From Pseudomonas sp. KU43P (GTDB lineage Bacteria; Pseudomonadota; Gammaproteobacteria; Pseudomonadales; Pseudomonadaceae), in the NCBI RefSeq assembly GCF_033095865.1, contig NZ_AP019365.1, positions 1,337,501 to 1,401,500 of the forward strand: 64,000 nucleotides of DNA, read 5' to 3'. A model generated the notes under the pieces. That model did no database searches and was not told the DNA's origin. It saw only the letters and a list, made by a program, of their open reading frames with translations. Shown here piece by piece: positions 24,931 through 44,931 of this stretch. The translations under genes were made by a program, and so were the position numbers. The number at the start of each line of letters is the position of its first letter. Position 1 is the first letter of the stretch.

Positions 24931-25418
24931 AACCCATGAGAAATTTCTTTGCCCGGGGCGTCGTCGCCCTGGTCGATGCTGGCCGCAAGCTGCAGAGCCT
25001 GCAAATGCGCCTGACCGCCGACGAAGTGAAAGACGGTATGGAGCACTTCGAGCCTTACGGCTTCACGTCCAACCCGCATCCGGGCGCTGAGGGCCTGGCG
25101 GCGTTCCTGGGCGGCGATCGCTCCCATGGGGTGGTGATCTGCGTGTCAGACCGCCGCTTTCGCCTGCAGGGCATGCAGAGCGGTGAAGTGGCCCTGCACA
25201 CCGACGAAGGCGACGTGCTGCATTTCAAGCGCGGCCGGGTGATCGAGGTGCAGACCGCGACATTTCGGGTCAAGGCCGACACGGCGGTCGAGTTTGATAC
25301 GCCGCTGATCAGCACCACCGGGCGCATCGTGTCGGACGGTGACCAGATCGCCGCTGGCGTCAGCACCTCGCTGCACGTTCACGAAGGCTCGGACAAGAAG
25401 CCGGTTAAGGGAGGCTGA
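24927..25418 (+). CDS. Baseplate spike protein (Mu gp45-like / gpV)
   Basis: A 163-residue protein with an OB-fold-like central part (GVVICVSDRRFRLQGMQSGEVALHTDEGDVLHF) and a C-terminal beta repeat region (FRVKADTAVEFDTPLISTTGRIVSDGDQIA), ending in a His-containing tip (SLHVHEGSD). Mu gp45 is the trimeric membrane-piercing spike. Order P-gp45-gp46-J-gp48 is the Mu baseplate cassette. Confidence 0.85.
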   Translation: MKPMRNFFARGVVALVDAGRKLQSLQMRLTADEVKDGMEHFEPYGFTSNPHPGAEGLAAFLGGDRSHGVVICVSDRRFRLQGMQSGEVALHTDEGDVLHFKRGRVIEVQTATFRVKADTAVEFDTPLISTTGRIVSDGDQIAAGVSTSLHVHEGSDKKPVKGG

Positions 25419-25419
25419 C

Positions 25420-25821
25420 ATGGCGCTATTCAGCGATGACGGCTCGGAACAGGCCTGGCAGCGCGCCGTGGTGATCAGCCTGCTGACCTGGCGGCGCGCC
25501 GAGGATGGCGACCAACTGGACGACGACCAGCGCTATGGCTGGTGGGGCGACACCTTCCCCACGGTCGAGCGCGACCGCATCGGCTCACGCCTCTGGCAGC
25601 TGCGCCGGCGCACGCTGACCGATGACACGGTGCGCGATGCCGTAGCGTTCGCCCGCGAGTCGCTGGCCTGGCTGGACGATGACGACCGGGTGGCGACCGT
25701 TACCGTAACGGCGTCGCGGGAGGTCACCCGGCTGAACCTGCAGGTGGTGCTGTCGATGCGCGACGGCTCAGTGATCGATGTTCAACTAGACAAGCTGTGG
25801 CAGGTGATCAATGCCGTTTGA
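25420..25821 (+). CDS. Baseplate protein gp46-like (gpW-type)
   Basis: A 133-residue protein from the ATG at 25420 (GGGAGG upstream). AVVISLLTWRRAEDGDQ, GWWGDTF and DDDRVATVTVTASREVTRLNLQVVLSMRDGSV match Mu gp46/GP46 family proteins, which link hub and wedges. It overlaps the J-like gene by 11 bases. Confidence 0.85.
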   Translation: MALFSDDGSEQAWQRAVVISLLTWRRAEDGDQLDDDQRYGWWGDTFPTVERDRIGSRLWQLRRRTLTDDTVRDAVAFARESLAWLDDDDRVATVTVTASREVTRLNLQVVLSMRDGSVIDVQLDKLWQVINAV

Positions 25822-26851
25822 AACCCCTACGTTGCCCGCGCTGATCGCCCGGGCACAGTCCGACCTGTCCGGCGGCAGTGCGCTGCTACGTTCCGACGCC
25901 GAGGTGCTGGCCCGTGTCCTGGGCGCGGCCAGTTACGGGCGCTACGGCCATCAGCAGTACATCGCCGACCAGATCCTGCCCGACACGGCCGACGAAGAAA
26001 CCCTGCTGCGCATGGCCCGCGCGCGGCTCAAGCGCGACCGTCTGGAAGCCGTGGCAGCCACTGGCCCGGCGGCCTTCACCGGCGCCGTGTCGGCACTGTT
26101 GGACGCCGGCACGCTGCTGCAGCGCGATGACCAGGTGCTGTTCCGGGTGCGCGCCACGGTCAAGCTGACCGCCACCTCGGGGGTGGCCGAGATCGAGGCG
26201 CTGGACGCCGGTGAGCTGGGCAACACCCCGGCCGGTACCCAGCTGCGCCTGGTGTCGCCGGTGCTGGGCGTCAATGAGGTGTTCACTGTCGGGGCGGACG
26301 GCCTGGCCGGTGGCACCGAGCAGGAGAGCATCGAGACGCTGCGCGGGCGGGTGATCCGTTCTTACCGGGTCATTGCCCACGGCGGCAGCAAGAGCGATTA
26401 CGAAACCTGGGCGCTGGAGGTGGCCGGCGTGACCCGGGCCTGGGTGGTGCGTCGCTGGGTTGGCCCGGGCACGGTGGCGGTGTTCTTCGTGCGGGATGGC
26501 GATATCGACATCATCCCCAACGCCGAGGCGCTGGCCACCGTGGCGGCCTACATCGAGCAGGAGCGCCCGGTGACGGCCGAAGTATACGTGCTGCCCCCGG
26601 TGGAAAAGCCGGTGCAGTACCAGCTGACGGTCACCCCGGACAGCAGCGCCGTTCGCCGCGCCGTGGAAGCCGCCCTGGTCGACCTGCACAACCGCGAATC
26701 GGAGCTGGGTGGCGGTCTGCTGGCCACGCACATCGCCGAGGCCATCAGCGGCGCCGTGGGCGAGCGCGACCACAAGGTGCTGGCTCCGATCGGCGACGTA
26801 ACAGCGGCCACTAATCAGCTGCTGACCTATGGGGGTGTGCTGTGGTCGTGA
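25811..26851 (+). CDS. Baseplate J-like wedge protein (Mu gp47)
   Basis: A 346-residue wedge protein. RSDAEVLARVLGAASYGRYGHQQYIADQILPDTADEETL is the typical J family start; VRRWVGPGTVAVFFVRDGD and the C-terminal AEAISGAVGERDHKVLAPIGDV agree. J subunits form the baseplate wedges that trigger sheath contraction. Confidence 0.9.
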   Translation: MPFETPTLPALIARAQSDLSGGSALLRSDAEVLARVLGAASYGRYGHQQYIADQILPDTADEETLLRMARARLKRDRLEAVAATGPAAFTGAVSALLDAGTLLQRDDQVLFRVRATVKLTATSGVAEIEALDAGELGNTPAGTQLRLVSPVLGVNEVFTVGADGLAGGTEQESIETLRGRVIRSYRVIAHGGSKSDYETWALEVAGVTRAWVVRRWVGPGTVAVFFVRDGDIDIIPNAEALATVAAYIEQERPVTAEVYVLPPVEKPVQYQLTVTPDSSAVRRAVEAALVDLHNRESELGGGLLATHIAEAISGAVGERDHKVLAPIGDVTAATNQLLTYGGVLWS

Positions 26852-27438
26852 GAACGGTGGACGACTACCTGGCCCAGCTGCGCGCCCTGTTGCCCCCGGG
26901 GCCGGCCTGGGATCGCGAGTTCAACCCCGGCGTTGACCAGTTGCTGCAGGCGGCCGCCGAGGAACTGGCCCGTGAGGATCTGCGCGCCGTGGCCCTGCTC
27001 GCCGAAAGCGAGCCGGCCACCGTGCGCGAGCTGGTGCCCGACTGGGAACGGGTCATGAGCCTGCCCGACCCGTGCATGGGCGACTCGCCGTCGTTCCAGG
27101 ACCGGCAACTGGCTGTGCGCCGGCGGTTGCTGGAGGTGGGTGGGCAGACGCCGGCGTACTTCGTTGACTTGGCTTTCACCCTCGGTTACCGCCAGGCGCG
27201 GGTGGTCGAGCACCGGGCGCCGCGCTTTGGCCGTTCGCGCTTTGGCTCGGCCCGCTTCGGCACCTGGGGCGCGCAGTTCATGTGGACCCTGGAAACCGGC
27301 CCTCGCCAGGCCGCCGGCAGCCGCTTCGGCTTCAGCCACTGGGGGCAATCCTTCGGCGTCGCCTCGAATGGCGCCCTTGAATGCCTGGTCAGCCGTTCGG
27401 CGCCGGCGCACACACTTGAAACCATCAACTACGGATAA
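26842..27438 (+). CDS. Baseplate/tail protein I-like (Mu gp48, YmfQ family)
   Basis: A 198-residue protein from GTG 26842 (GTG 26848 is equally possible, with a GTGA overlap). LRALLPPGPAWDREFNPGVDQLLQAAAEELAR and PDPCMGDSPSFQDRQLAVRRRLLEVGGQTPAYF are the YmfQ/DUF2313 hallmark. It connects tail fibres to the baseplate and precedes the fibre gene. Confidence 0.88.
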   Translation: MVVRTVDDYLAQLRALLPPGPAWDREFNPGVDQLLQAAAEELAREDLRAVALLAESEPATVRELVPDWERVMSLPDPCMGDSPSFQDRQLAVRRRLLEVGGQTPAYFVDLAFTLGYRQARVVEHRAPRFGRSRFGSARFGTWGAQFMWTLETGPRQAAGSRFGFSHWGQSFGVASNGALECLVSRSAPAHTLETINYG

Positions 27439-27443
27439 GCACC

Positions 27444-29273
27444 ATGGATTACCCGAAAAGCACGCCCAACGTGGGCTTGGTCGGCGGCAAGTTCGTCGAC
27501 GAAAACACCAGCACCGGGCAAGCCGGGTCGCTGATCCCGGCGACCTGGGGCAACTCGGTTACGGACGAACTGCTGGCCGTGATCGTCGCGGCCGGCCTGA
27601 CGCCCAGCGAAGGCGACCTGACCCAGTTGCAGAAGGCTATCCAGACACTGGCAGCCAGCGACGTGAAACGTACCGTGCGCGTCGCCACTACCGGCGCCAT
27701 TGCGCTGTCCGGAGTGCAGACTATTGACGGCGTGGCCCTGGTCGCCGGTAACCGGGTGCTGGTGAAGGATCAGGCGGCCGGCTCGCAGAACGGTATCTAC
27801 ACCGTCGCTGCCGGCGCCTGGGTGCGCGCCCTGGACACCAACGAAAGCGCCGAATGTGTGCCCGGGCACCTGGTGATTGTCGAGAGTGGTACCGCCCACG
27901 GCGGGGCGATCTGGCAGCTGGCGAACACCACGTTGCCGACCCTTGGTACCACCGCCCTGGTGTATGCCCGTGTGTTTGGCAAAACTGGCGTGGCCGCCGG
28001 CACCTATCGTTCGGTGACCATTGACGTACAGGGCCGGGTCACAGCTGGCAGCAACCCGACCACGCTGGCCGGGTACGGCATTACCGACGTCTACACCCAG
28101 GCGCAGGTCGACAACCTGTTGGCGGGCAAGGCGGGTAACGCCACCACTCTGGCCGGCTATGGCATCACGGATGCGTACACGCAAAGCCAGGTCAACACGT
28201 TGTTGGCTGCCAAGGCGCCATTGGCCAGCCCGGCCTTCACTGGCATCCCCACGGTGCCCACGGCGGCTGCAGGCACCAACAACCTGCAGGCGGCTAGCAC
28301 GGCGTTTGTGCAGGCCGCGATCGCCGCCCTGGTCGGCTCGTCGCCGGCAGCGCTGGACACGCTCAAGGAGCTAGCCGACGCGATCGGCAACGACCCGAAC
28401 TTTGCGACCACCATGGTCAATGCCCTGGCCGGCAAGGCCAACAAGGCCACGACGCTGGCGGGTTACGGCATCACTGACGGGGTGAAGTTTGGCGACTATG
28501 GCCTGGGCAAGCCCATTACCCTGGAGGGCGGCTCCAACCTGAATGCGCTGGTACAGCCAGGCATCTACCTGTTTGGCTCGGGCACGGCGCTGGTCAACGC
28601 GCCGATCACCGGGGCCAGTTATGTGATCGTGCGCGGCTCTGAGGTGTACCCGCACCAGGAGCTGCGGCGTATCTATCAGAACCGGGTATTCATCCGGGCG
28701 GCAAAAACGGCGAATCCCACTACAGCTGCGGCTGATTGGATGGACTGGGAAGAGCTGCTGACCTCGGGCAATCATGTCCAGTCGACGGCAGATGAAGCGC
28801 AGGCCGGCGTTGCAACATCCGGCTGGATGACGCCCTTGCGCGTCTATCAAGCGGTTCGCTCGGCGGTGTATCGCTGCACCGAAGCGGCCTGGGGCGTCAT
28901 TCGCTTGGCCACACAGGATGAGACGGACGCGGGCGCGCTGGACGTCGCTGCAGTCACCCCGTTGAAGCTGAAAAAGCACAGCAGCATCGGGGTCGGGCAG
29001 ACCTGGCAGAACGTGCTGGCTTCGCGTGCGCTGAACACCACGTACACCAACAGTACCGGCCGCCCAATCATGATCACTGTCGCACTGCGCGATCAGGGCA
29101 GCTACATGTCGGAGATGTATGTGGCCGGTGTGCAGGTCGGTACGTGGGACCAGTCCACCAGCATCACCTACACGCAAACTTTCATTGTCCCAGCCGGCGC
29201 CACTTACATGGTTACGGGTAACGGCGGTTCCGCCGGCGGGAACACCCTTGTGCTTTGGACGGAGCTGCGCTGA
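27444..29273 (+). CDS. Prophage tail fibre protein
   Basis: A 609-residue fibre. The N-terminal part (residues 1-70) is a baseplate-attachment domain. Residues about 72-330 are repeated shaft modules (TTLAGYGITD, SPAFTGIPTVPTAAAGTN, STAFVQAAIAALVGSSPAALDTL) homologous to the tailocin fibre at 39749. The C-terminal part (residues 345-609) is unrelated to the tailocin tip and likely binds the receptor, ending in a beta domain (TYTQTFIVPAGATYMVTGN). It is followed by a chaperone gene with an overlapping start. Confidence 0.88.
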   Translation: MDYPKSTPNVGLVGGKFVDENTSTGQAGSLIPATWGNSVTDELLAVIVAAGLTPSEGDLTQLQKAIQTLAASDVKRTVRVATTGAIALSGVQTIDGVALVAGNRVLVKDQAAGSQNGIYTVAAGAWVRALDTNESAECVPGHLVIVESGTAHGGAIWQLANTTLPTLGTTALVYARVFGKTGVAAGTYRSVTIDVQGRVTAGSNPTTLAGYGITDVYTQAQVDNLLAGKAGNATTLAGYGITDAYTQSQVNTLLAAKAPLASPAFTGIPTVPTAAAGTNNLQAASTAFVQAAIAALVGSSPAALDTLKELADAIGNDPNFATTMVNALAGKANKATTLAGYGITDGVKFGDYGLGKPITLEGGSNLNALVQPGIYLFGSGTALVNAPITGASYVIVRGSEVYPHQELRRIYQNRVFIRAAKTANPTTAAADWMDWEELLTSGNHVQSTADEAQAGVATSGWMTPLRVYQAVRSAVYRCTEAAWGVIRLATQDETDAGALDVAAVTPLKLKKHSSIGVGQTWQNVLASRALNTTYTNSTGRPIMITVALRDQGSYMSEMYVAGVQVGTWDQSTSITYTQTFIVPAGATYMVTGNGGSAGGNTLVLWTELR

Positions 29274-29623
29274 TGAAATATTTCAAGAATCCCGAGGGCG
29301 GCCAGGTGTTTGCCTTTGCGGCGGATGGCTCCGACGATGAGTACATTCCCGCCCACCTGGTGCCGATGGATGACGCCGAAGTGGCTCTGCACCTGAACCC
29401 TGCAGCGGCAGCGCCCACCCGCACCATGATCGAGGCCGAGCGCCTGCGTGCTTACGCTGACCCGTTGATCGGCAGCGATCGCTACTTTGCCGAGGCGCAG
29501 CGCGAAAGCCTACTGGGCAATGCTGAGAACGCCGAGACGGCCAAGCGCCTTGGCTTGGAACGGTTCGCCGAGATCCAGGCCGAGTACCCCTGGCCGGATG
29601 AAGACACCGGCGCCGCCTCCTAA
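29273..29623 (+). CDS. Tail fibre assembly/chaperone-like protein
   Basis: A 116-residue protein starting at the ATG at 29273, which shares its A with the fibre stop codon. MKYFKNPEGGQVFAFAADGSDDEYIP followed by a region ending EAERLRAYADPLIGSDRYFAEAQRESLLG fits small tail-fibre-associated proteins of Pseudomonas phages. The role as a folding chaperone for the fibre tip is inferred from position. Confidence 0.7.
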   Translation: MKYFKNPEGGQVFAFAADGSDDEYIPAHLVPMDDAEVALHLNPAAAAPTRTMIEAERLRAYADPLIGSDRYFAEAQRESLLGNAENAETAKRLGLERFAEIQAEYPWPDEDTGAAS

Positions 29624-29648
29624 AGCCCCGCACTGCCGGGGCTTTTTC
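29624..29648 (+). terminator. Intrinsic terminator after prophage tail genes
   Basis: Stem AGCCCC/GGGGCT with loop GCACTGCC, followed by TTTTTC. It separates tail-fibre genes from the lysis block. Confidence 0.8.
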
Positions 29649-29670
29649 TTTCCTGCTATTCGAGGTTTTC

Positions 29671-30300
29671 ATGCTTAAACACGTATTCCTGGCGGCCCCC
29701 CAGTGGCTGCTGCTGTTTCCTGTGCGCGTTGCGCTGATCCTGATCGGCCTGGTGGTCGTGCCGCTGGCCATGCCGTTACTCGTAACGGAAGGCCCGCCGG
29801 TGCCCTTCACCCAGGCCCCCGGCAACTGGCAGTTCAAGCGACTGCCTGCATGGGCTTGGTTGTGGTCGAACGATCGCGACGGCGCCGCCGGCGATAAGCG
29901 CGGCTGGTGGCACCTCAACGCGCCGTTCGGGCTGGGCGCCTATCACCCGCTGTCGATGTTCGTGTGGTTGGCCCTGCGCAACCCGGCCAACAACATGCGT
30001 TTCACGCGCTGGCTGGGCTGCCCGGTCACCGAGTGTGATTACCGATACTGGGGCGACGAGAACGTCGAGGATCGGCCAGGGGAGGGTGGTCGCCGCCTTT
30101 TACTTGCCACTCACAAAAAAACAGGGCGCCGCTACTACGGCTTCTACGGCGTGTGGGAATGGTCGACTACTCGCGCCGTAGTCATACAGATCGGCTTCAA
30201 GGGTGAGCCAAAGGACTGGGCAGAGGACTACACCGGCGATCTTTCCCGCCAATGGGCTGGCATGACTTTCGAAATCAACCTGTTTAAGGACATCTCGTAA
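29671..30300 (+). CDS. Membrane-anchored phage protein (DUF7338-like)
   Basis: A 209-residue protein with one N-terminal hydrophobic segment (residues about 8-38) followed by an aromatic-rich soluble domain (GWWHLNAPFGLGAYHPLSMFVWLALRNPANNM, RYYGFYGVWEWS). The pattern resembles uncharacterised proteins next to lysis genes of Pseudomonas phages. It overlaps the endolysin start by one base. No catalytic motif is seen. Confidence 0.6.
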   Translation: MLKHVFLAAPQWLLLFPVRVALILIGLVVVPLAMPLLVTEGPPVPFTQAPGNWQFKRLPAWAWLWSNDRDGAAGDKRGWWHLNAPFGLGAYHPLSMFVWLALRNPANNMRFTRWLGCPVTECDYRYWGDENVEDRPGEGGRRLLLATHKKTGRRYYGFYGVWEWSTTRAVVIQIGFKGEPKDWAEDYTGDLSRQWAGMTFEINLFKDIS

Positions 30301-30851
30301 TGGCTATCACCGAAAAACAGCTGCAGCAGATTCTTCCTAACGCCGGCCGCCAAGCCGGCGTTTTTGTTCCTGGCCTCAACGCGGCAATGGGCAAGTACGG
30401 CATCGTCACCCGTTTGCGCATGGCGGCATTCCTCGCCGAGATCGGCCATGAGTCTGGCCAGCTGCGCTATGTGCGTGAACTTGGAAATGATGCCTACCTG
30501 GCCAAGTACGACACCGGCCGCCTGGCCCAGCGCCTCGGCAATACGCCTGAGGCCGATGGTGATGGCCAGAAGTATCGCGGTCGTGGCCTGATCCAAGTCA
30601 CCGGGCGGGCCAACTACGAAGCCTGCAGCGAGGCCCTGTTCGGTGACGCTCGCCTGCTGGCCACCCCGGAGCTGCTCGAGCATCCGGTCTACGCCTCAAT
30701 GTCGGCAGGTTGGTTCTGGCACAAGAATGGCCTCAACAGCCTGGCCGACAAGGGCGACTTCCTGTCGATCACAAAGCGGATCAACGGCGGTACCAACGGC
30801 TTGGAGGATCGCGAAGCGCTCTACAAGCGAGCGCTTGAGGTGCTGCAGTGA
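30300..30851 (+). CDS. Endolysin, glycoside hydrolase family 19 type
   Basis: A 183-residue chitinase-like muramidase. The likely acid/base pair is Glu51 in EIGHESGQLRYVRE and Glu60, followed by RYRGRGLIQVTGRANY, a GH19 endolysin hallmark. It degrades peptidoglycan at the end of the lytic cycle. It has no signal peptide, so it depends on the holin encoded at 8203. Close paralogue of the tailocin endolysin at 49077. Codons 13-22 form a terminator-like hairpin (30339-30365). Confidence 0.92.
   Translation: MAITEKQLQQILPNAGRQAGVFVPGLNAAMGKYGIVTRLRMAAFLAEIGHESGQLRYVRELGNDAYLAKYDTGRLAQRLGNTPEADGDGQKYRGRGLIQVTGRANYEACSEALFGDARLLATPELLEHPVYASMSAGWFWHKNGLNSLADKGDFLSITKRINGGTNGLEDREALYKRALEVLQ
30339..30365 (+). 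terminator. Intragenic terminator-like hairpin in endolysin gene
   Basis: A perfect 9-bp stem AACGCCGGC/GCCGGCGTT with loop CGCCAA, followed by TTT, inside the coding sequence. The tailocin endolysin has the same structure with one compensated base pair (49113-49139). Confidence 0.65.
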
Positions 30852-31405
30852 AGGCCCTGGATTGGCGTCTGGCTTGCCTCGCGCTGCTGCTGGGCTTGGC
30901 CCTGGGTGGGCGTGGCGCCTGGTTGTGGCAGGCCTGCACCTACGGTAAGCAGCTTGCCGAACAGGCTGCGGACTACGGCCGTCAGTTGGCGGCAAAGGAT
31001 CGCGATCATGGCCGGGAGCGTGAGCAGGCTGCTGCGGCGGCACTCGATCAGATGGCGGAACAGCAGGGTGCGCGCCGCGCCCTGGAGGGGCGCCTGCAGG
31101 AACAGAATCAGACCCATTGGAAGGAGATGGCGGATGCCAAAAAAACTCGGGATCGCCTGCGCGATCAGCTTGCTACTGCTGACGTGCGGCTGTCAGTCCT
31201 TGTCGACGCCGGAGCCTTTGCCTCCCAGAGTTGTGACGGTGAGGTGCGAGAAACCACCAGCCCCGGAGGCGTGGTTCATGGAATCATTCGAGCCGACGTT
31301 GACCACGCGTTTGCTCAACGAATTCTCGCCATCACCCAAGAGGGCGACCGGGGGTTGATCGCGCTAAAGGCGTGCCAGGCTTACGTCTCGGAAATTATCA
31401 AATGA
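30848..31405 (+). CDS. Inner-membrane spanin Rz
   Basis: A 185-residue protein from a GTG overlapping the endolysin stop (GTGA). One N-terminal membrane anchor (residues about 7-26) is followed by a long Gln/Ala/Arg-rich coiled coil and a C-terminal GDRGLIALKACQAYV motif. Rz links to the lipoprotein Rz1 encoded inside it, and together they disrupt the outer membrane. Paralogue at 49619. Confidence 0.85.
   Translation: MKALDWRLACLALLLGLALGGRGAWLWQACTYGKQLAEQAADYGRQLAAKDRDHGREREQAAAAALDQMAEQQGARRALEGRLQEQNQTHWKEMADAKKTRDRLRDQLATADVRLSVLVDAGAFASQSCDGEVRETTSPGGVVHGIIRADVDHAFAQRILAITQEGDRGLIALKACQAYVSEIIK
31134..31358 (+). CDS. Outer-membrane spanin Rz1, nested in Rz
   Basis: A 74-residue lipoprotein entirely within Rz in another frame. 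The ATG at 31134 has AAGGAG seven bases upstream. The signal ends in LLLLTCGC with Cys20 as the probable lipidated residue; the mature part is Pro-rich (STPEPLPPRVV, PPAPEAW). It shares the layout of the nested Rz1 in the tailocin. Confidence 0.82.
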   Translation: MPKKLGIACAISLLLLTCGCQSLSTPEPLPPRVVTVRCEKPPAPEAWFMESFEPTLTTRLLNEFSPSPKRATGG

Positions 31406-31414
31406 TACTTAGAG

Positions 31415-31449
31415 CGTTCCCAGCCAAACGAGGCTGGGGACGTTTTTTT
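31415..31449 (+). terminator. Strong terminator ending prophage late operon
   Basis: An 11-bp stem CGTTCCCAGCC/GGCTGGGGACG (one T-G pair) with loop AAACGA and seven T. It isolates the AT-rich cargo genes downstream from late transcription. Confidence 0.9.
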
Positions 31450-31517
31450 GGGGACTGGAGACTTTAAAAAATTAGAGTTATAAAAAGCACTGAAAATGTG
31501 ACATGCATGGAGTGGCT

Positions 31518-33407
31518 ATGAGGTTCACTAGCAAGCAGGTATATAAAGGGCTGTGGCTCGATGATGGTCTTGAAGTCACAGGGAGTGTTGCCGTGCTCAC
31601 TGGTAAAAACGGCTGCGGAAAGACTAGGTTTCTTGAGGCTGTGCGAGGAAGTTTCGAGGTGACCATTGAGGGTGAGATTCTAGATCCAAATAATATCTTA
31701 TATCTCCCTCAAGGTGAAATGCAGGGTAAGTTTGGGGGCGGGTTTTCTGGTGTGGAGCACGAACAAAGAATACAGAGTCTTATTCGATGGTATGGTTTTA
31801 ATAAAGGGTTTCTGGCTGAGCCATTCAATCCAATAGGGGATAGAGGCTATCCTATGGATTTGCCATATGGCCTCGAGCAATTGCACAAGTCACTAAGCTA
31901 CGTGGCGTCCAGGCTTAACAAAGATGTGCTTGACTTATCCTCAGAGGAAATACGTCTCAACTTTGTAGAGCCCAATAATTTTGCCGGTCATCTCTCTATA
32001 GCTTCGATCTGCAACGAATATATAGTTAGGGAGCGGCAGAATCTCTATCACATGTGGCTCAGTAAGGAGTTTGGCAAAAATGTACTCTGGATTGAGCCGG
32101 GCGAGTTTTTGAAGCGATTCGGCACTCCTCCCTGGAGTCTTTTTAATGATATTGTTAAAGAGCTGTTTGATGGTAAATTTTTTATGTCAGAGCCGCTGCT
32201 TGATGACGTCTATTCGGACTATCAGCCTGAGTTTTTTGAGGTTGAAACAAAAGCGAAGGTGGAGTTGGAGTCGCTGTCATCTGGTGAAAAAAATTTGCTT
32301 TGGATGGCAGTGAGCATATTTAAGCTTCAGTACCAGCGCGGGCCGCTAATCGGTATTCCTAAACTAATTTTAATGGATGAGCCAGATGCGCTGCTTCACC
32401 CAAAAATGGTACTAAAGCTGTACTCTGTCATTAGGATGCTGGCTGATCATTTTGGTTGCGTTGTCATTTTTTCCACCCACTCACCGACAACTGTTGCACT
32501 GGCATCGGAAGGTGAGGTTTTTAGAGTGGAGAAAAACAAAATAGTTGGGGTTGATAGAGATTCGGCAATCTCGGATCTTCTTGAAGGTGTAAGTCAGATT
32601 TCGCTTAATCCGAATAATAGGAGAGAGGTTTTCGTTGAAAGCTTGGCTGATGTTAATGTGTATAGGTATATTTTTGATCGGATGAGGTCTCGGTTTGAAA
32701 GTGTTGATCCTAAAATTTCGCTTTCATTCTTGGTCGCTGGGCCGAAAATGAAAGCGGGCCAAGTGGCCGACAAGTTTAGGCAGCATTTCGGTAAGGTTTC
32801 TGAAGAGTTGATAGAGAGCTTCTCGGAGAGTCTTAACGGTGTGGGAAATAGCGGTCAAGTAGAGGAGATGGTTCACTCACTCTCTAGTTTGGGGAATAGA
32901 AGTGTAAAAGGAGTAATCGATTGGGACCTAAAAAATACACCGTCAAACGGTGTGTCTGTCCTGGGGTATGAACTGTTTTATACTCTTGAAAATATCCTCC
33001 TAAATCCAATTTATGTGGTGCGCTTATTGTATAGGTTGCAGCCTCGTCTTTATGATTTTGAGAGGTTCTGTGGTGAGAGTTTGTCTGTGGAGGAATGGAA
33101 GGAGGATTATAATCTGTTACAAAGAACTGTTGATTCATTCATTGAGGAGGTGTTGGGTAGTGGGGAGGATGATTGCGGAGAGATTGAGTTTCTTTCCGGT
33201 GGGTCTATTAAGGTTCGGTCGGACTTTTTAAGGCATCAAGGACATAAGTTGAAGGGCATGATTGTTGAAAAGTTTCAGGTGCTTAAGTCCTGTGATAAGA
33301 GGGAGGGGGACCTACTGCTGGAGTTGACACGTGTAATGATTGATGATTTTGGTTGGAGATTTGTGCCTAAGGTTTTCGATAAGTTGTTTTGCGAACTGCA
33401 GTCGTAA
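31518..33407 (+). CDS. AAA ATPase fused to TOPRIM/DUF4435-like domain
   Basis: A 629-residue protein; the ATG at 31518 has GGAG six bases upstream. Residues 1-340 form an ABC/AAA15-type ATPase: Walker A GKNGCGKT (29-36), signature LSSGE (253-257), Walker B LILMDE (283-288) with Asp287/Glu288, and switch His321 in STHSP. Residues 370-629 look TOPRIM/DUF4435-like: FVESLADVNVYRYIF with Glu374 and Asp378, then VIDWDLKN with Asp468/Asp470, and YELFYTLENILLNP. This architecture recalls OLD nucleases and the AriA-AriB parts of PARIS anti-phage systems. Codon usage is strikingly AT-rich, indicating transfer. It pairs with the gene at 33552. Confidence 0.75.
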   Translation: MRFTSKQVYKGLWLDDGLEVTGSVAVLTGKNGCGKTRFLEAVRGSFEVTIEGEILDPNNILYLPQGEMQGKFGGGFSGVEHEQRIQSLIRWYGFNKGFLAEPFNPIGDRGYPMDLPYGLEQLHKSLSYVASRLNKDVLDLSSEEIRLNFVEPNNFAGHLSIASICNEYIVRERQNLYHMWLSKEFGKNVLWIEPGEFLKRFGTPPWSLFNDIVKELFDGKFFMSEPLLDDVYSDYQPEFFEVETKAKVELESLSSGEKNLLWMAVSIFKLQYQRGPLIGIPKLILMDEPDALLHPKMVLKLYSVIRMLADHFGCVVIFSTHSPTTVALASEGEVFRVEKNKIVGVDRDSAISDLLEGVSQISLNPNNRREVFVESLADVNVYRYIFDRMRSRFESVDPKISLSFLVAGPKMKAGQVADKFRQHFGKVSEELIESFSESLNGVGNSGQVEEMVHSLSSLGNRSVKGVIDWDLKNTPSNGVSVLGYELFYTLENILLNPIYVVRLLYRLQPRLYDFERFCGESLSVEEWKEDYNLLQRTVDSFIEEVLGSGEDDCGEIEFLSGGSIKVRSDFLRHQGHKLKGMIVEKFQVLKSCDKREGDLLLELTRVMIDDFGWRFVPKVFDKLFCELQS

Positions 33408-33551
33408 GGATTGGATGGTCTGTCGGTCGAGTCGCACGGTTTAAAATTCCCATCCCTTCTTTGCCTGGGGGTTCGCTATAGTGTTCGATGCGTCTTGTGC
33501 TTTAGTGTGAAGAGGGAAGATCTCTGGTATAAGTACGGCTTTGGAGTGAAG

Positions 33552-34313
33552 ATGGGTAGCTTAGGTTATTTCGAAGAGGTTTTTGGTAAGCATGGCTTGA
33601 TGATCCCAGTATTTTCTAATTTTGGGATTTTGCAGGATCTTTGCGCAGAACTGGCTGGAGTAGAAAATCCATCTGATGAAGAGATTCAAAGTGTTCTGTC
33701 AATGGTTTATACCCCGGGGCATTTAGCTGCTATGGTTCTCTCCCGGTATCCTACCGTGCCGTTTGTTTCGGATTTTAAAGTGTCGATAGCTGAGTCGGTA
33801 GAAGCACATTTTTTAGGTCTAGGTCATGTAGCAGTCGCTGGACTTATGCCGGTGGTTGAAGGGGTTGGTCGTAGATTATATGAGCATAAAAAGCTAGGGC
33901 CGCGTCGGGGGAATGGGATTGTAAATAGATTTAATGCGCTCACGGATTTTGCCATCGCGGAGGTAAATGAGCGGAAGCTTGGAGATTATGCAGAGGTGCA
34001 TTCAATGTTGAATTCGTTTAGGGTGTTTTTGGGTGGTTTTTTTTACTCGGACTCTGAAGTGTACCCGATAAGCGATAAAACAAATCGTAATGGCGTAACA
34101 CATGGTGCCTATGATGATGGCGATTTTGGAAGTCCTTTAAATTTCTATAAAACTTTAGGGGCGATCGATATGCTTTGCTTAATTGCTAGCTTTCAAGTGT
34201 TTCCTCCAAAGGCAACGCCAGAGAGCAATGCGTTAGCAATGCATTATCAAAGTATACGGAATTTAAATAATTATAGTCGAGATAAGTGGAGTAAATTCTT
34301 TGCGGAGCCCTAA
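33552..34313 (+). CDS. Cargo partner protein with R-x4-H (HEPN-like) motif
   Basis: A 253-residue protein if it starts at the ATG at 33552 (GGAG five bases upstream); a TTG at 33411 would add 47 residues and bring it within 4 bases of the ATPase gene. The N-terminal half is a helical region of unknown family. The C-terminal part contains NRNGVTHG, in which Arg179-x4-His184 matches the R-x4-6-H active-site pattern of HEPN RNases, followed by an FYKTLGAIDMLCLIASF helix, as in several abortive-infection proteins. AT-rich like its neighbour. A toxin/effector role is an inference. Confidence 0.55.
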   Translation: MGSLGYFEEVFGKHGLMIPVFSNFGILQDLCAELAGVENPSDEEIQSVLSMVYTPGHLAAMVLSRYPTVPFVSDFKVSIAESVEAHFLGLGHVAVAGLMPVVEGVGRRLYEHKKLGPRRGNGIVNRFNALTDFAIAEVNERKLGDYAEVHSMLNSFRVFLGGFFYSDSEVYPISDKTNRNGVTHGAYDDGDFGSPLNFYKTLGAIDMLCLIASFQVFPPKATPESNALAMHYQSIRNLNNYSRDKWSKFFAEP

Positions 34314-34488
34314 GGCAAAAGATAGATGCTTGTCCAGCGCATCAACGTCGTGCACAAAGGGGCTAGATGAATGACCGGCGGCGCACTTTCAGAAATACTG
34401 CCCCAATCCATCATCGGTGGCAGTCACGCTGCAGGGGCCGGCTCGGCCGCCCGATGGAGCATCGGAGGTAGTGGGCACCTTTGCTGAT

Positions 34489-34695
34489 TCAAGCTCGGAG
34501 GCGCTCGATCCCGACCGAGATTGCTTCCGAGTGGGTGTCCAGCGTCATCAGGGCTACCATGACGTTGTCATGGATATGGATCGAGCCACGTTGACTAACC
34601 CAGAGGGACAGCTCTTCTAGTGCTGCTCTGATGGCAGTTTGGTTGAGTAGCAGCAGCTCCAGGGTGTCTGCTGTGATTTCGGCTTTCTCGTCCAT
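34489..34695 (-). CDS. Small conserved prophage-end protein
   Basis: A 68-residue helical protein (MDEKAEITADTLELLLLNQTAIRAALEELSLW). The ATG at 34695 has GGGAG upstream. Similar small genes occur near attachment ends of Pseudomonas prophages as far as I recall. It points leftward, opposite to the late and cargo genes, and its promoter must lie in 34696-34800. Between 34314 and 34488 I see no gene. Function unknown. Confidence 0.6.
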   Translation of the reverse strand: MDEKAEITADTLELLLLNQTAIRAALEELSLWVSQRGSIHIHDNVMVALMTLDTHSEAISVGIERLRA

Positions 34696-35234
34696 GATAG
34701 GCTCCCAATACCGTAGATATTTTTAGGGCAAATTTAGGGCAGATTCTGGGACGCCTGAGGCCAGAATGGGCCATTTGCTCAGGTGAGAATAACCGTTTTT
34801 ACTGGCCTATAGTGGCCCACCGAGCATGTCGGGCGGGTTCAAATCCCTATCCTTAGTTAAGGCAGGGATCAATGCAGGCCCTGGCTCGGCCTCCATGGGC
34901 GAGAGCGGGTCTGACCTTGGGGCAAAAATGGGGCAAACCATGCGCCATTTCATGCCAATCTATGCCAATGCATACGCTTATGCTGCAAGCCTCAAAGGCG
35001 CTCAAGTCCCAGTTCTGCGGGGCTTTGGCGCCTTTTCACGTTACTACTCAAGCACAATCGGTGTGTGTGCGGAAAGATCAGACATTCAGGGCCTTACAGC
35101 GGGTGATCTGGTTGGCGATTGTGAAACCGGCAATGGTACAGGCTTTTTCAACGAGATGCAGAAAGAGCCCATGGGGCATGAGCGCGCAGCAAGGTGCGTT
35201 GCATTTCATGCCGCGCGCCTGCATTATGCACGCT
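34696..35234. other. Prophage/tailocin junction: att-like repeats and prtR operator region
   Basis: A 539-base non-coding stretch. TTTAGGGCA occurs at 34722 and 34733, and TGGGGCAAA at 34918 and 34929, each pair exactly 11 bases apart and variants of one motif, as expected for integrase arm sites. A tRNA T-arm-like GGGTTCAAATCCC lies at 34835-34847 between them. A hairpin with arms AAAGGCGC/GCGCCTTT occurs around 35000-35035. Closer to prtR, TGCAT/ATGCA elements (34969, 35202, 35220-35238) resemble those in the tailocin promoter. The exact attR is not determined. Confidence 0.45.
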
Positions 35235-35972
35235 ATGCAAAAACGCAACGTAGCCACCGTACTTAGAGAACTGCTCGACCGCCACGGCCTGTCCCCGACG
35301 GAGCTGCACCGGCGCACGGGCGTACCGCAATCCACCCTGTCGCGTATTCTCGGCGGCAAGATCGTCGACCCGTCAGACAAGCACGTGTCGAAGATCGCCG
35401 ACTATTTCGGAGTCAGCACCGAGCAGTTGCGTGGCCGTGCCGCACTTGGCCAGTCACACGAGGCCGCGCTGCCGGCCCATGGCCATGCGGACCTCGGCGA
35501 CATCAGCCTGTGGGACGATGAAACCCCCGTCGAGGACGACGAGGTGTCGGTACCCTTTCTTCGCGAGGTCGAATTGGCAGCAGGATCAGGAAGATTCGTC
35601 ATCGAAGAGAGCGAGCGCGCGCGCTTGCGCTTCGGCAAGCGCAGCCTGCGCCACAATGGCGTTCAGTTCGATCAGGCCAAGTGCGTGACGGTCCGCGGCA
35701 ACAGCATGCTGCCGGTGTTGCGCGATGGCGCCACGGTCGGGGTCAATACCGGCAAGTGCTCGATTGGCGACATCATCGATGGCGACCTTTACGCCATCAA
35801 CCACAACGGCCAGCTGCGGGTGAAACAGGTCTATCGACTGCCCACCGGCATTCGCCTGCGTAGCTTCAACCGTGACGAACACCCCGATGAAGACTACAGC
35901 TTCCAGCAGATGCAGGACGAGCAGATCAGCCTGCTCGGGCATGTGTTCTGGTGGGGCATGTACGCCCGCTAA
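35235..35972 (+). CDS. prtR: PrtR-like tailocin repressor, S24 autoprotease
   Basis: A 245-residue repressor (ATG 35235; ATG 35226 also possible). Residues 10-62 form a helix-turn-helix (SPTELHRRTGVPQSTLSRIL). The S24 domain has a likely cleavage site Ala116-Gly117 (LAAGSG), Ser157 in GNSM and Lys197 in RVKQVY. PrtR represses R/F-pyocin genes and is cleaved upon RecA activation. It is transcribed in the same direction as the tailocin and followed by a terminator, so it forms its own unit. Long ORFs that extend upstream run through operator sequence and were discarded. Confidence 0.9.
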   Translation: MQKRNVATVLRELLDRHGLSPTELHRRTGVPQSTLSRILGGKIVDPSDKHVSKIADYFGVSTEQLRGRAALGQSHEAALPAHGHADLGDISLWDDETPVEDDEVSVPFLREVELAAGSGRFVIEESERARLRFGKRSLRHNGVQFDQAKCVTVRGNSMLPVLRDGATVGVNTGKCSIGDIIDGDLYAINHNGQLRVKQVYRLPTGIRLRSFNRDEHPDEDYSFQQMQDEQISLLGHVFWWGMYAR

Positions 35973-35989
35973 ATACCCCCAGCTTCAAG

Positions 35990-36015
35990 AAAACCCGCCT
36001 CGGCGGGTTTTTTTT
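35990..36015 (+). terminator. prtR intrinsic terminator
   Basis: Stem AAACCCGC/GCGGGTTT with loop CTCG and a run of eight or more T. Confidence 0.88.
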
Positions 36016-36057
36016 CGCCTGAAGAAAAGGCCTACAAGGCAGATGGTGCAAGGCCTC

Positions 36058-36132
36058 CATGCATATCAGCAAAATCCAGTGCATAGAAATTTCAAGAAAT
36101 GCATTGACTGCATATGCATGAATGCATAGCCT
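36058..36132 (+). promoter_or_regulatory. Tailocin promoter with TGCAT operator array
   Basis: Six TGCAT pentamers lie within 71 bases. A consensus-like -35 TTGACT (36104-36109), a 17-base spacer that contains two ATGCAT palindromes, and a poor -10 TAGCCT (36127-36132) suggest a repressed and possibly activator-dependent promoter. The same TGCAT/ATGCA elements precede prtR. PrtR is the obvious candidate ligand. Confidence 0.6.
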
Positions 36133-36449
36133 GTGTCTCAAGCCGGACGGAAACCGGTTGTTACACAGGCAGCGATGGACAGGCCTCAACTGTCCAGAGG
36201 GTTGGCAACTGGCCCGGGTGTGCAGCGTAAAGCACCACGATCAGTTTTCCGGCGGGCAGGTTGCCGCGGTCGGAGTCAATAACTTGAAGCGTAACCGCTC
36301 GGTGTCACCAGTCGTGGCCGGCGGTTGGACAACGCATTACTGAAAAGCCTGCCTCGCCGGGCTTTTTGGAATGCCGGGTCTTTGAACTCAGAGTACCCAC
36401 AACCCGCCTGTTGGCTCCCGCCAACAGGCATTACACAGGAGACAGGACA
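36133..36449 (+). promoter_or_regulatory. Tailocin leader with terminator and hairpin
   Basis: A 317-base untranslated leader. It contains a terminator (AAAAGCC/GGCTTTT arms with T run, 36343-36367) and a perfect 10-bp hairpin GCCTGTTGGC/GCCAACAGGC with loop TCCC (36406-36429), 20 bases before the holin start and just before its AGGAG site. No protein-coding frame is convincing. The arrangement mirrors the prophage leader before its holin (8000-8202), suggesting control by attenuation or antitermination. Confidence 0.6.
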
Positions 36450-36788
36450 GTGACGAACGAGCAACAAGCGTTACTGGAGATGCCGCTCTGGCTGGTGATC
36501 GTCCTGGCATTGCTGGGCGGCCTGAGCGGCGAGATGTGGCGGGCCGACAAGGCCGGCGCTACCGGCTGGTCACTGCTGAGGCGGCTGGCGCTGCGCTCCG
36601 GGGCCTGCATGGTCTGCGGGGTATCGACGGTGATGCTGCTGTATGCCGGCGGCCTGTCGATCTGGGCAGCCAGCGCATTCGGCTGCATGACTGCAGTAGG
36701 CGGCGCCGATGTGGCGATGCGGCTGTATGAACGCTGGGCAATTCGGCGTTTGGGCTTGCGCGACAGTACGCAGACCGATGAGCGATAG
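36450..36788 (+). CDS. Tailocin holin
   Basis: A 112-residue membrane protein from the GTG at 36450 (AGGAG eight bases upstream). Three hydrophobic segments (about residues 12-30, 46-64, 68-88) and the same GGLSGEMWRADKAG and LYERWA motifs as the prophage holin at 8203. It should form the lesion through which the GH19 endolysin at 49077 escapes to release tailocin particles. Confidence 0.87.
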   Translation: MTNEQQALLEMPLWLVIVLALLGGLSGEMWRADKAGATGWSLLRRLALRSGACMVCGVSTVMLLYAGGLSIWAASAFGCMTAVGGADVAMRLYERWAIRRLGLRDSTQTDER

Positions 36789-36799
36789 GAGGAATATGC

Positions 36800-37297
36800 A
36801 TGAGCGAATTGTCTACTTTGCATTCGGCAGTGACGGCAACCATTCGTAGGGCGATGCCGGAGCTGGCTTCAGTCGATGCTTATACGGCTGTAGGAAATGC
36901 ACCGGAACGGCCGGCGCTACGTCATGGCATCGTGCGTATGACGGCCGACGCAGCACCACGGGATGGTCGCTCGGTACTGGTCGCCACCTTCGAGGCGGAC
37001 ATCACGGCCGACAGCGCCAACCCCGAAGCACGCCTGCAGGGCAGCCTGCTGGCCGCGCAATTGATGGACTTGCTGCGCCAGCAGCATTGGGCGCTGGACT
37101 TCGTCGAGGCCAGCCGCAATGTCCAGGCGCAGTTCGAAGGCAGCGCCTGGACTGTGCGCTGGGATCAGCCGGTGCTGCTCGGCGATCCGAACTGGAACTG
37201 GCCGGACCAGCCTCCCGGCAGCCTGATGCTGGGCTTTGCGCCCGACATAGGCCTGGACAATGAAGCGCATTACATTGCCCCGGAGACGCTGACATGA
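36800..37297 (+). CDS. Tailocin protein between holin and spike (PA0615-like position)
   Basis: A 165-residue protein from the ATG at 36800 (AGGAGG seven bases upstream). It has a helical start and strands such as [14 protein letters not shown], and ends with a Trp/Pro-rich segment ([23 protein letters not shown]). In R-pyocin clusters a gene of this size sits between holin and gpV. It probably belongs to the particle or its assembly, but its exact role is not known to me. Overlaps gpV by 4 bases. Confidence 0.65.
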
Positions 37298-37854
37298 GCT
37301 ACGTCAGCGCCATGCATGACCGCATGCTGGCGTGCCTGCTCATACCCTGCCGGGTGGTTGCGCTGGACCTTGACGCCGCCCGGGTGCGGGTATCCGATGG
37401 CAGCGGCTGGACCAGCGCCTGGTTGCGCTGGCATGCCCAGGCCGCCGGGCAGGCCCGCCACTGGCGGGCGCCCAGCGTGGGTGAGCAGGGCGTGTTGCTC
37501 AGCCCCAGTGGCGAGCCGGCCCAGGGTACTTTCATCGCCGGCCTCTATGGCAACGCCGGTAGCGCTGCAGACAACCGCGGGCACGTCGAGGTGTGGCGTT
37601 TTGCCGATGGCGGCTCGCTCAGCTACGACTGGCAGGCCAGTCATTACGACATCCAGCTGCCGGGCGGTAACGCCACCGTCCGGGTCGGCGACAGCACCGT
37701 GCAGGTCAGTGACGGCGCAATCAGCCTGCAGGCCGCCGCGATCAAACTCACGGGCAATGTCACCGTCGACGGTCCGCTGCAGGTCAGCGGCGATATCAAC
37801 GGCGGTGGGCGGATCATCGACACCGCCGGCAACACCGCTAACCACAAACATTGA
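37294..37854 (+). CDS. Baseplate spike protein gpV
   Basis: A 186-residue P2 gpV-like spike. The OB-fold region ([38 protein letters not shown]) is followed by a beta-helical stalk ([33 protein letters not shown]) and a tip ending in NTANHKH, a His-x-His motif that binds iron in P2-like spikes. It punctures the outer membrane of target cells. A terminator follows. Confidence 0.9.
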
Positions 37855-37858
37855 ATCA

Positions 37859-37880
37859 AGCCCGCCACTGCGGGCTTTTT
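37859..37880 (+). terminator. Intrinsic terminator after gpV
   Basis: Stem AAGCCCGC/GCGGGCTT with loop CACT and T5, within the tailocin operon. Confidence 0.8.
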
Positions 37881-37897
37881 CATGCCTGGAGAATGCC

Positions 37898-37942
37898 ATG
37901 CAAACCCATGAACAGGGCGCTGCCACGGGAGGTGCGCCATGA
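37898..37942 (+). CDS. Possible 14-residue leader peptide before gpW
   Basis: ATG at 37898 opens MQTHEQGAATGGAP and its TGA overlaps the gpW ATG as ATGA; GGAG lies nine bases upstream. It could couple translation of gpW after the terminator. There is no other support. Confidence 0.3.
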   Translation: MQTHEQGAATGGAP

Positions 37943-38265
37943 TCGGCCTGGACCGCCGCACCGGCCAGCCACTGGCCGGCATCGGCCACCTGCGCCAGTC
38001 CATCGAAGACATCCTTGGCACACCGTTGGGCAGCCGCCGCATGCGGCCCGAGTACGGCAGCCAGCTGCGGCGCTTTGTCGACCTGCCCGTCAACGAGGGC
38101 TGGAAGAGCGCCGTGCAGGCCGAGGTGGCCCGCGCGCTAGGCCGGTGGGAACCACGCCTGCAGCTTGAGCGGGTGACGGTGGTCGCGGTGCTCGATGGCC
38201 AGGTCAGCCTGGCGCTGAAAGGCCGCTACCTGGGCGACGACGCCCTGCTGGAGGTGAGCCTATGA
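37939..38265 (+). CDS. Baseplate wedge protein gpW
   Basis: A 108-residue protein with the GPW/gp25 signature: DRRTGQPLAGIGHLRQSIEDILGTPLGSRRMRPEYGSQLR. It is the inner wedge/sheath initiator of contractile tails. GGGAGG precedes the ATG, and it overlaps gpJ by 4 bases. Confidence 0.93.
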   Translation: MIGLDRRTGQPLAGIGHLRQSIEDILGTPLGSRRMRPEYGSQLRRFVDLPVNEGWKSAVQAEVARALGRWEPRLQLERVTVVAVLDGQVSLALKGRYLGDDALLEVSL

Positions 38266-39143
38266 GCCAGGTCGACCTGTCGAAACTGCCAGCGCCACAG
38301 CTACTGGAAGATCTCGATTTCGAAGCGCTCTACCAAGCTGACCTGGAGACTTTCCGCGAATACCTGGGCGATGCCTGGACCGCCAACCTGGAAAGCGACC
38401 CGGTCACCAAGCTGCTCGAGGTAGGTGCCTACCGCAAGCTTCTAAACCGCGCCCGCATCAATGATGCCGCCAAGGCGCTGTTGCTGGCTTATGCCCAGGG
38501 CAGTGACCTGGACCAGTTGGCGGCGAACGTCAGCCTGCAGCGCCTGGTGATCCAGGTCGAAGACCTGAGCAGCGTGCCCCCCATCGAAGCGCTACTGGAA
38601 TCGGACGACGCCCTGCGCGAGCGAGTGCAGCTGGTTTACGAAGGCCTGACCACTGCCGGCCCGCGCAACAGTTACATCCTGCATGCCCGCAACGCCTCGG
38701 GGCAGGTGGCTGACGCCACCGCCGAAAGCCCGTCGCCGGCGGTGGTGGATGTGACCGTGCTGGGCCTTGAGGGTGATGGCAAGGCCAGCGCCGAGCTGCT
38801 GGTGCAGGTGGCTGCCTACCTCAATGACGACGACATTCGCCCGGTCGCCGACCGGGTCAATGTGCGCAGCGCCGAGGTACTGCCGTATCGCATCGATGCC
38901 GTGCTCTATTTCGCCGACAGCGGGCCCGAGTACGAGGCGATTCTCGCCGAGTGCCAGCGTCGCCTGGAAGCCTGGGTCAACCCGCGACGGCGCCTGGGGG
39001 TTGAGGTGGCCCGCTCGGGTATCGACGCCCAGCTGCACATCGATGGCGTCAGCCGGGTGGAGCTGAACAACTGGGCCGACATTCGGCCGAGCAAGGCGCA
39101 GGCAGCCTGGTGCAGCGGTTTCACCTTGACGCGGGGAGGCTGA
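38262..39143 (+). CDS. Baseplate wedge protein gpJ
   Basis: A 293-residue P2 gpJ homologue: LPAPQLLEDLDFEALYQADLETFREYL, DPVTKLLEVGAYRKLLNRARINDAAKALLLAYAQGSDLDQLA, RNSYILHARNASGQV. It forms the wedge arms with gpI. It is the P2-type counterpart of the Mu-type J at 25811. Confidence 0.93.
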   Translation: MSQVDLSKLPAPQLLEDLDFEALYQADLETFREYLGDAWTANLESDPVTKLLEVGAYRKLLNRARINDAAKALLLAYAQGSDLDQLAANVSLQRLVIQVEDLSSVPPIEALLESDDALRERVQLVYEGLTTAGPRNSYILHARNASGQVADATAESPSPAVVDVTVLGLEGDGKASAELLVQVAAYLNDDDIRPVADRVNVRSAEVLPYRIDAVLYFADSGPEYEAILAECQRRLEAWVNPRRRLGVEVARSGIDAQLHIDGVSRVELNNWADIRPSKAQAAWCSGFTLTRGG

Positions 39144-39147
39144 CGAC

Positions 39148-39756
39148 ATGCAGAGTCTATTGCCGCTCAACCGTACAGCGTTGGAGTGCGCCATCGAACG
39201 TGCGGCCGACGAAGACCTCAAGGTCAGCCTGCGGCTGCTCTACAGCCCGGACAGCTGCCCCGCCCACCTGCTTTACCACTTGGCCTGGGCATGGTCGGTG
39301 GACCGCTGGGAAGACAGCTGGAGCGATGAGATCAAGCGTTCGGTGATCCGCTCGGCGTTCTTCGTTCACGCTCACAAAGGCACCCTCGGTGCCCTAAGGC
39401 GGGTGGTGGAGCCCTTCGGTTACCTGATCGAAGTACAGGAGTGGTGGCAAGCCACGCCGCCCGCGCAGGCGGGCACCTTCACCTTGAAGGTCGGCGTTTC
39501 CGATGCGGGCATCAGCGAAAGCACCTACCAGGAACTGTCATCGCTGATCGATGACGCCCGCCCGGTCAGCCGCCACCTGACGGGCCTGGTGATCAGCCTT
39601 GAAAGCCGTGGCGCCCTTCATGTCGGCTGCGCGATCCAGGACGGCGACGAATTGGACATCTACCCGTTGGCGCCGCGTGACATCGAGGTCGCCGGTGCCA
39701 TAGGCCGCGGCGGCCGCGAACATACAATCGATACCTTGGACATAGCACATGGTTGA
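39148..39756 (+). CDS. Tail protein gpI
   Basis: A 202-residue P2 gpI homologue: SLLPLNRTALECAIERAADE, CPAHLLYHLAWAWSVDRWEDSWSDEIKRSVIRSAFFVHAHKGTLGALRRVVEPFG. It joins the fibre to the baseplate and overlaps the fibre gene by 8 bases. Confidence 0.92.
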   Translation: MQSLLPLNRTALECAIERAADEDLKVSLRLLYSPDSCPAHLLYHLAWAWSVDRWEDSWSDEIKRSVIRSAFFVHAHKGTLGALRRVVEPFGYLIEVQEWWQATPPAQAGTFTLKVGVSDAGISESTYQELSSLIDDARPVSRHLTGLVISLESRGALHVGCAIQDGDELDIYPLAPRDIEVAGAIGRGGREHTIDTLDIAHG

Positions 39757-42319: not shown

Positions 42320-42328
42320 GGTCACATT

Positions 42329-42787: not shown

Positions 42788-42803
42788 CACATCTGGAGAC
42801 TTT

Positions 42804-43970: not shown

Positions 43971-43983
43971 GGAGCGCATCTAC

Positions 43984-44493: not shown

Positions 44494-44503
44494 GGAGGCG
44501 AAC

Positions 44504-44918: not shown

Positions 44919-44931
44919 CAAGGAGGAACCT

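Follow-up and report, generated by a model that had tools for sequence, protein, structure and literature searches.

The stretch of DNA analysed here, called the window, covers 64,000 nucleotides (nt) of Pseudomonas sp. KU43P (NZ_AP019365.1, positions 1,337,501–1,401,500 of the forward strand; assembly GCF_033095865.1), and the element in question is an AT-rich island of two genes, gene 1 and gene 2, lying within a prophage. The island was bounded on the left by the terminator of the lysis operon and on the right by a conserved gene of the prophage right end. Its guanine-cytosine (GC) content was 0.436 (0.438 in gene 1 and 0.425 in gene 2) compared to 0.614 for the window, and the two genes stood on one strand, separated by 144 base pairs (bp) in which no terminator was listed. 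A preliminary description had recognised such an island behind a terminator at 31415–31449, and this was confirmed (the hairpin folds at about 31411–31446). The main features, in window positions, with lengths in amino acids (aa), were as follows:

31518–33407, plus strand: gene 1, predicted fusion of an AAA_21/AAA_15 ATPase and a DUF4435-like Toprim, 629 aa, intact open reading frame (ORF)
31602–31625, plus strand: Walker A codons G29–T36 (GKNGCGKT) of gene 1
32595–33404, plus strand: residues 360–629 of gene 1, its Toprim-like C-terminal part
32637–32639, plus strand: codon E374, the Glu predicted to bind metal in the Toprim (51/51 aligned members)
32919–32927, plus strand: codons D468-W469-D470, where the Toprim DxD is predicted (both Asp 51/51)
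33552–34313, plus strand: gene 2, HEPN-like, 253 aa, intact ORF
34086–34103, plus strand: codons R179 to H184, R-x4-H motif of gene 2

Gene 1 starts with an ATG preceded by a ribosome-binding-like GGAG. The Walker A (G29–T36), LSSGE (253–257), D287/E288 and H321, like E374, D378, D468 and D470 further on, were verified at the positions previously given for them. Pfam recognised AAA_21 (52.8 bits) and AAA_15 (46.3 bits), both above cut-off. The top PADLOC models were ATPase-Toprim_I-B (E 6.5e-17) and AriA (2e-16). ATPase-Toprim_I-B was found in all 51 aligned family members at E <= 1e-10, the match covering both the ATPase and the Toprim in some relatives of gene 1. The GajA model matched the ATPase of gene 1 at E 1.9e-12. 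The PADLOC AriAB model (E 6.9e-12, 42.8 bits) reached the ATPase part only, over model positions 282–404 of 694; this reach was longer in some of the ten relatives scanned (299–585 in L057, 233–532 in L059). When the profile of the whole gene-1 family was aligned, AriA-like proteins gave 4.2e-8 and 1.5e-7, and OLD proteins gave values down to 3.1e-11 (L129).

The scan of viral contigs with gene 1 returned 66 loci. The family alignment A4 was composed of 50 proteins and the window copy (51 rows). Sixteen viral loci stayed outside it: the near-duplicates L033 and L047, the split gene L058, the partial L065, L085 and L086, L087 and L088, whose C-terminal half could not be aligned to the profile, and eight weak matches (L089–L096). 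The ATPase residues G29, N31, G32, G34, K35, S254, G256, E257, D287, E288 and H321 were invariant in the 51 rows. In the AlphaFold2 model of gene 1 (predicted local distance difference test 88.3, predicted template modelling score 0.62), residues 1–361 formed an ABC-type head with fold matches to PtuA, SMC and ABC proteins. L087 and L088, both on viral contigs, kept the ATPase of the gene-1 type and showed Toprim-like acidic motifs, EG...D / DFDE by eye, in their differing C-terminal halves. It is possible that this ATPase family swaps its nuclease parts, since L087 and L088 join the gene-1 ATPase to a different C-terminal half. A membrane effector was rejected at a best 19-residue mean hydropathy of 1.39 and 1.62.

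In the C-terminal part, E374, D468, D470 and P497 were conserved in all 51 rows, D378 in 50, E491 in 49 and N492 in 48. Residues 360–629 had been proposed to be DUF4435-like, and the Pfam profile of this family was indeed found in the C-terminal parts of 19 of the 51 members at E <= 1 (best 6.1e-7); the remaining 32 showed none, and the window copy itself was among those without a match. The profile of the C-terminal part was then compared with two AriB-like proteins, L112 and L113, each belonging to an AAA + DUF4435 gene pair in the same genus. The pair gave an E value of 1.5e-4 against 0.14–0.46 for three shuffled controls, and the two proteins taken singly gave 0.0042 and 2.9e-5. In this alignment the V-E-x3-D, I-D-x-D and Y-x-x-E-N motifs of gene 1 and of the AriB-like proteins were matched up. 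Eight OLD-type Toprims were fetched; without L133, the remaining seven gave hhalign E values of 0.04–0.57 singly and 0.079 as a set, and the OLD-like Toprim PF20469 was found in 0/51 C-terminal parts at E <= 1. An OLD-type Toprim was rejected for gene 1, these profile alignments being at or near the level of the shuffled controls. In the AlphaFold2 model the C-terminal part alternated strands and helices, with E374 just past strand 368–373 and D468 at the end of strand 463–468; the rows of the whole-model fold searches covered residues 1–361, and none was informative on the C-terminal half.

The sequence comparisons thus support gene 1 as the fusion of an AAA15/21-type ATPase with a DUF4435-like Toprim, and the Toprim is predicted to be a two-metal nuclease, its acidic residues matching those of AriB. 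PARIS also exists in the form of single-gene AriAB fusions, AAA_15/AAA_21 + DUF4435 (PMC9122126). For two-gene PARIS the same study applied AAA_15 and AAA_21 thresholds of 32 and 27 bits, both exceeded by gene 1, and detected fusions by its own profiles (PMC9122126). The order of the domains in one chain, ATPase then DUF4435-type Toprim, is shared with a PARIS fusion, and the E-x3-D, D-x-D and E-N motifs with AriB-like proteins, whereas the lack of a DUF4435 match in the window copy and the restriction of the AriAB match to the ATPase part set gene 1 apart. The earlier interpretation of gene 1 as an AriA/AriB-like fusion was supported, as an architecture previously described for PARIS. Gene 1 is best read as a divergent relative of single-gene PARIS, in a divergent one-chain ATPase-Toprim family.

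The ATG of gene 2 at 33552 was also preceded by GGAG. An alternative TTG start at 33411 would add 47 aa; the ATG was preferred because four close relatives start there (MGSL/MGNL: L028, L097, L098, L099) and because of the GGAG. The motif was read as N178-R179-N-G-V-T-H184-G185, in agreement with the NRNGVTHG pattern first noticed. Two alignments were made, A5 with 19 rows and A2 with nine. N178, R179, H184 and N197 were invariant in both (19/19 and 9/9), distant members included, and the R-x4-H spacing was ungapped in every row. In A5, the polar position 180 following the Arg was H in 14/19 and N in 5/19, E103 was present in 19/19, and E103-x3-R107 in 16/19. HEPN proteins are marked by an upstream E-x3-[KR] and by N, D or H as the polar residue following the Arg (PMC3710099). 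The conservation of these motifs and of those of gene 1, invariant or nearly so in 19 and 51 aligned members, respectively, indicates that they exceed chance.

Gene 2 was predicted to be all-helical, and HEPN chains topped the list of fold matches with weak scores; the confidence of the model was low in the motif loop. No family match was obtained in Pfam, NCBIfam, PADLOC or PHROGs, the best PDB sequence match had an E value of 0.31, and the profile alignment to three HEPN families gave no match. DUF4209, ApeA and AbiV HEPN were rejected by sequence, being no better than shuffled controls, and several of the alignments to DUF4209 proteins landed on one and the same E103 region. The HEPN assignment of the preliminary description thus stands on the signature and on the best, weak, fold matches, and not on HEPN profiles. 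R-x4-H, the polar residue after R, E-x3-R and the all-helical fold are shared with the HEPN ribonucleases (HEPN TM0613, Csm6, AbiV, HepS of Gifsy-1), which differ from gene 2 in that it has neither a Pfam HEPN match nor a recurring partner. We predict from sequence features that gene 2 encodes a HEPN-like putative ribonuclease of an unclassified family. This family ranged over Proteobacteria, Bdellovibrionales and Acidobacteria, on plasmids and genome contigs. Setting aside neighbours common to closely related pairs or trios of loci, only two recurred: the gene at the right border of the island, in the window and at two loci, and a family at L098, L104 and L110, at differing distances. A toxin-antitoxin partner was rejected on this outcome. 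In L024 (4919–7132) a relative of gene 2 adjoined a KAP-family nucleoside triphosphatase on the opposite strand.

The two genes had been taken for partners, with gene 2 as an extra effector of gene 1. Among 398 genomes of the same genus, gene 1 was found in four (E <= 1e-20) and gene 2 in seven (E <= 1e-5), and the genome of KU43P, counted in both totals, was the sole one with both. In 369 genomes of the class gene 2 was in the own genome only, and in 283 relatives gene 1 was in the own genome and in G415 only. No member of the gene-2 family (profile A2, E <= 1e-4) was detected at any of the 65 gene-1 loci above 130 bits, the downstream sequence of L031–L034 being missing or short. These loci (four plasmid, three same-genus and 58 viral, representing 62 distinct proteins in a 170-residue comparison) had one kilobase (kb) or more of downstream sequence in 61 cases and as much on either side in 52. 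Their recurrent neighbours resembled phage genes and SOS or methylase genes of host type (named by eye). Gene 1 is thus a repeated find in viral contigs, with no partner conserved beside it, and is also found on plasmids. Conversely, no gene-1 family member was found at the 25 gene-2 loci (a further short locus, L011, was checked in fewer scans and is not counted). L028 carried a shorter AAA ATPase (443 aa, 56–62 bits) about 5 kb away, and in L107 an ATPase was matched weakly (22.7 bits). Plasmid records of gene 2 numbered seven, of which two from Providencia and one from Stenotrophomonas were outside the locus set. In this sample the partnership was not borne out. The refuting condition set by the preliminary description, that the genes fail to co-occur elsewhere, spoke against the pairing in the sample, with the exception of L031–L034, the closest gene-1 relatives, where the downstream sequence is missing or short. 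The supposed new two-gene combination is better explained by two genes that occupy a cargo slot independently of each other.

The limits of this slot were the following:

30300–30851, plus strand: endolysin, left border (phrog_181, E 5.2e-76)
30848–31405, plus strand: Rz-like gene, left border, labelled from its position and the names of matched phage records, with no family match
about 31411–31446, plus strand: left edge of the slot, a terminator hairpin at the end of the lysis operon (RNAfold -26.0 kcal/mol, running into a T tract)
34489–34695, minus strand: right border gene, 68 aa, conserved, phrog_12397 (E 5.9e-19)

The hairpin was not listed by the simple terminator scan. The genes around the island included a primase, terminase, major head protein, tape measure, endolysin and repressor, with a tail module upstream of the endolysin (by eye). 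The DNA to the right of the island (34314–35100) was matched in 35 of 298 genomes, the own one included. Seven of the 35 loci, picked for a border-gene match, were fetched; the lysis cassette and the border gene were both present in L135, L136, L139 and L140, and the border gene only in the stretch taken from the other three. Neither gene 1 nor gene 2 was detected in the seven (tblastn, E <= 1e-4). L135 was a near sister prophage, with 91.9% identity to 25366–28480, 84.6% to 29623–31387 and 89.6% to 34489–34854. In its slot a D12 DNA methyltransferase stood with a gene of 334 aa (GC 0.43) that had no Pfam match. The slot of L136 contained a 592-aa fusion of GmrSD_N and Schlafen AlbA_2 (6424–8202) along with methylase-, SRAP- and UmuDC-like genes (by eye), that of L139 a DUF6602 protein, and that of L140 an SRAP protein with methylase-like and UmuDC-like genes (by eye). 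The earlier description of the island as prophage cargo is thereby strengthened.

In L032, L033 and L034 a relative of gene 1 followed a homologous endolysin, with 1.3 kb between the two starts; in L039, whose gene 1 is the same as in L020, this distance was 2.1 kb. A further relative of gene 1 adjoined the border gene in L063. Next to the border gene, L023 (identical to L098) and L028 each carried a relative of gene 2. As the relatives of each gene stand by these border genes without the other, the two genes use the same kind of slot separately. The island is best read as the cargo of a variable slot extending from the lysis cassette to the conserved right-end gene in a family of Pseudomonas prophages. 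This matches the pattern of prophage hotspots, in which PARIS is carried (PMC9122126), in different phages and hosts. The search for a known phage with the island gave no DNA match in 50,697 phage records, and no protein match, at E <= 1e-5. The available parts of PMC9122126, PMC12409363, PMC3710099 and PMC12629846 contained no description of the gene-2 family or of the slot. In L139 a SIR2_2 protein of 837 aa (9432–11945, GC 0.42) was located past the border gene and before a second phrog_12397 copy. That this SIR2_2 gene is flanked by two copies of the border gene suggests that the latter may move together with cargo modules.

We consider it probable that the two genes, both of defence type and each standing alone, were acquired independently as cargo of a prophage slot, gene 1 being PARIS-like and gene 2 a predicted HEPN ribonuclease. 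The closest relatives of gene 1 are precisely L031–L034, with their missing or short downstream sequence. Several observations weigh against the PARIS likeness of gene 1: the ATPase part gives PARIS no preference, the OLD alignment being the stronger one; the C-terminal profile retrieved no AriB chain from the PDB sequences up to E 10; and the fused AAA-DUF4435 protein L114 was aligned across only 28 C-terminal columns. For gene 2, the weak fold scores, the low confidence in the motif loop and the absence of library matches would fit a helical regulator or a phage-fitness protein with an R-x4-H look-alike instead of an active ribonuclease. We regard this as unlikely given the four residues invariant in all A5 and A2 rows, the E103-x3-R107 in 16/19 that supplies a second HEPN hallmark (PMC3710099), and the HEPN chains heading the fold list. 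It is also unlikely that gene 1 degrades DNA as an OLD or retron I-B ATPase-Toprim would, unlike AriB, with gene 2 as an unrelated neighbour. OLD proteins and Gabija GajA hold an ATPase and a Toprim within one protein (PMC12409363). Gene 1 shares this arrangement, the retron type I-B effector ATPase-Toprim_I-B is its top PADLOC model and matches all 51 members, and the OLD protein L129 gives the strongest whole-family alignment. Its C-terminal part alone, however, aligns to AriB-like proteins and not to the seven OLD Toprims, and Pfam gives DUF4435 and no OLD-like Toprim. Moreover, genes 1 and 2 are the only ORFs of at least 200 aa wholly within 31405–34489 and neither matches a reverse-transcriptase family. 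A retron effector was rejected on this absence of a reverse transcriptase ORF from the island; in the search for an RNA coding for multicopy single-stranded DNA, no Rfam family passed the gathering score in the window.

The common strand, the 144 bp gap, the similar low GC and the absence of a listed terminator would suit a single two-gene system in which gene 1 combines the sensor with a Toprim effector and works with gene 2 as a further effector, of HEPN type, or as a regulator. Such a system is improbable in view of the overlap restricted to the own genome, the 0/65 and 0/25 loci, and the presence of each gene by slot border genes without the other. A composite, in which the ATPase of a PARIS-like sensor-nuclease also controls the neighbouring HEPN ribonuclease, is very doubtful and retains its small chance because downstream sequence is missing or short in L031–L034. 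If true, one infection signal would launch two chemically different RNA-cutting activities, a metal-dependent Toprim and a metal-independent HEPN. Finally, the position straight after the lysis operon might suggest that both genes serve the cycle of the prophage itself and not defence. We find this highly improbable, as a strong terminator stands between, the sister prophage L135 keeps its phage genes without either gene, and neither family is confined to this setting, plasmids carrying members of both and genome contigs members of the gene-2 family.

The two genes, unlinked in the sample, look like separate weapons and not one machine, and for both we infer the defence function, the trigger, the substrate and the outcome. 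In two-gene PARIS a hexamer of AriA sequesters three AriB, and phage proteins bound by AriA bring about the release of AriB, its dimerization and the cleavage of tRNA-Lys, AriB being proposed to be a two-metal nuclease (PMC12409363). We propose that the ABC/AAA-type ATPase of gene 1 would sense a sign of infection and that its rearrangement would activate its own C-terminal Toprim. The activation would take place in place, without the release of a sequestered AriB known from two-gene PARIS, since sensor and nuclease form one chain. By analogy, tRNA cleavage and growth arrest would follow. Gene 2 would act alone, as a metal-independent HEPN ribonuclease using R179/H184 with E103.

At the right side of the prophage, homology with sister prophages extended as far as 34851–34854. 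A tRNA T-arm-like stretch, GGGTTCAAATCCC, was observed at 34840–34860, where this homology stops, and may be a candidate attachment site; elsewhere in the own genome only weak matches to it were found, and the left end was not found. Promoters in the region showed no excess over shuffled sequence. A second phage-like cluster followed directly, at about 35200–50100, with its own repressor and tail-like ORFs, ending ahead of a RecA-like ORF near 50750 (by eye); a tailocin is one possible identity. The segment 49101–50072 was also matched by the endolysin regions of sister prophages. The tape measure ORF contained two tandem 123-nt direct repeats, 75% alike, at 21256–21501.

The claimed two-gene system resolves into three testable items, the gene-1 family, the gene-2 family and the slot. 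The one-chain ATPase-Toprim family, repeated in viral contigs, could show how a nuclease of the PARIS type is switched on without release. The HEPN-like family, unmatched by four profile libraries, is a testable item in itself, and the Pseudomonas prophage slot, from the lysis cassette to the phrog_12397 gene, can be mined for further candidates.

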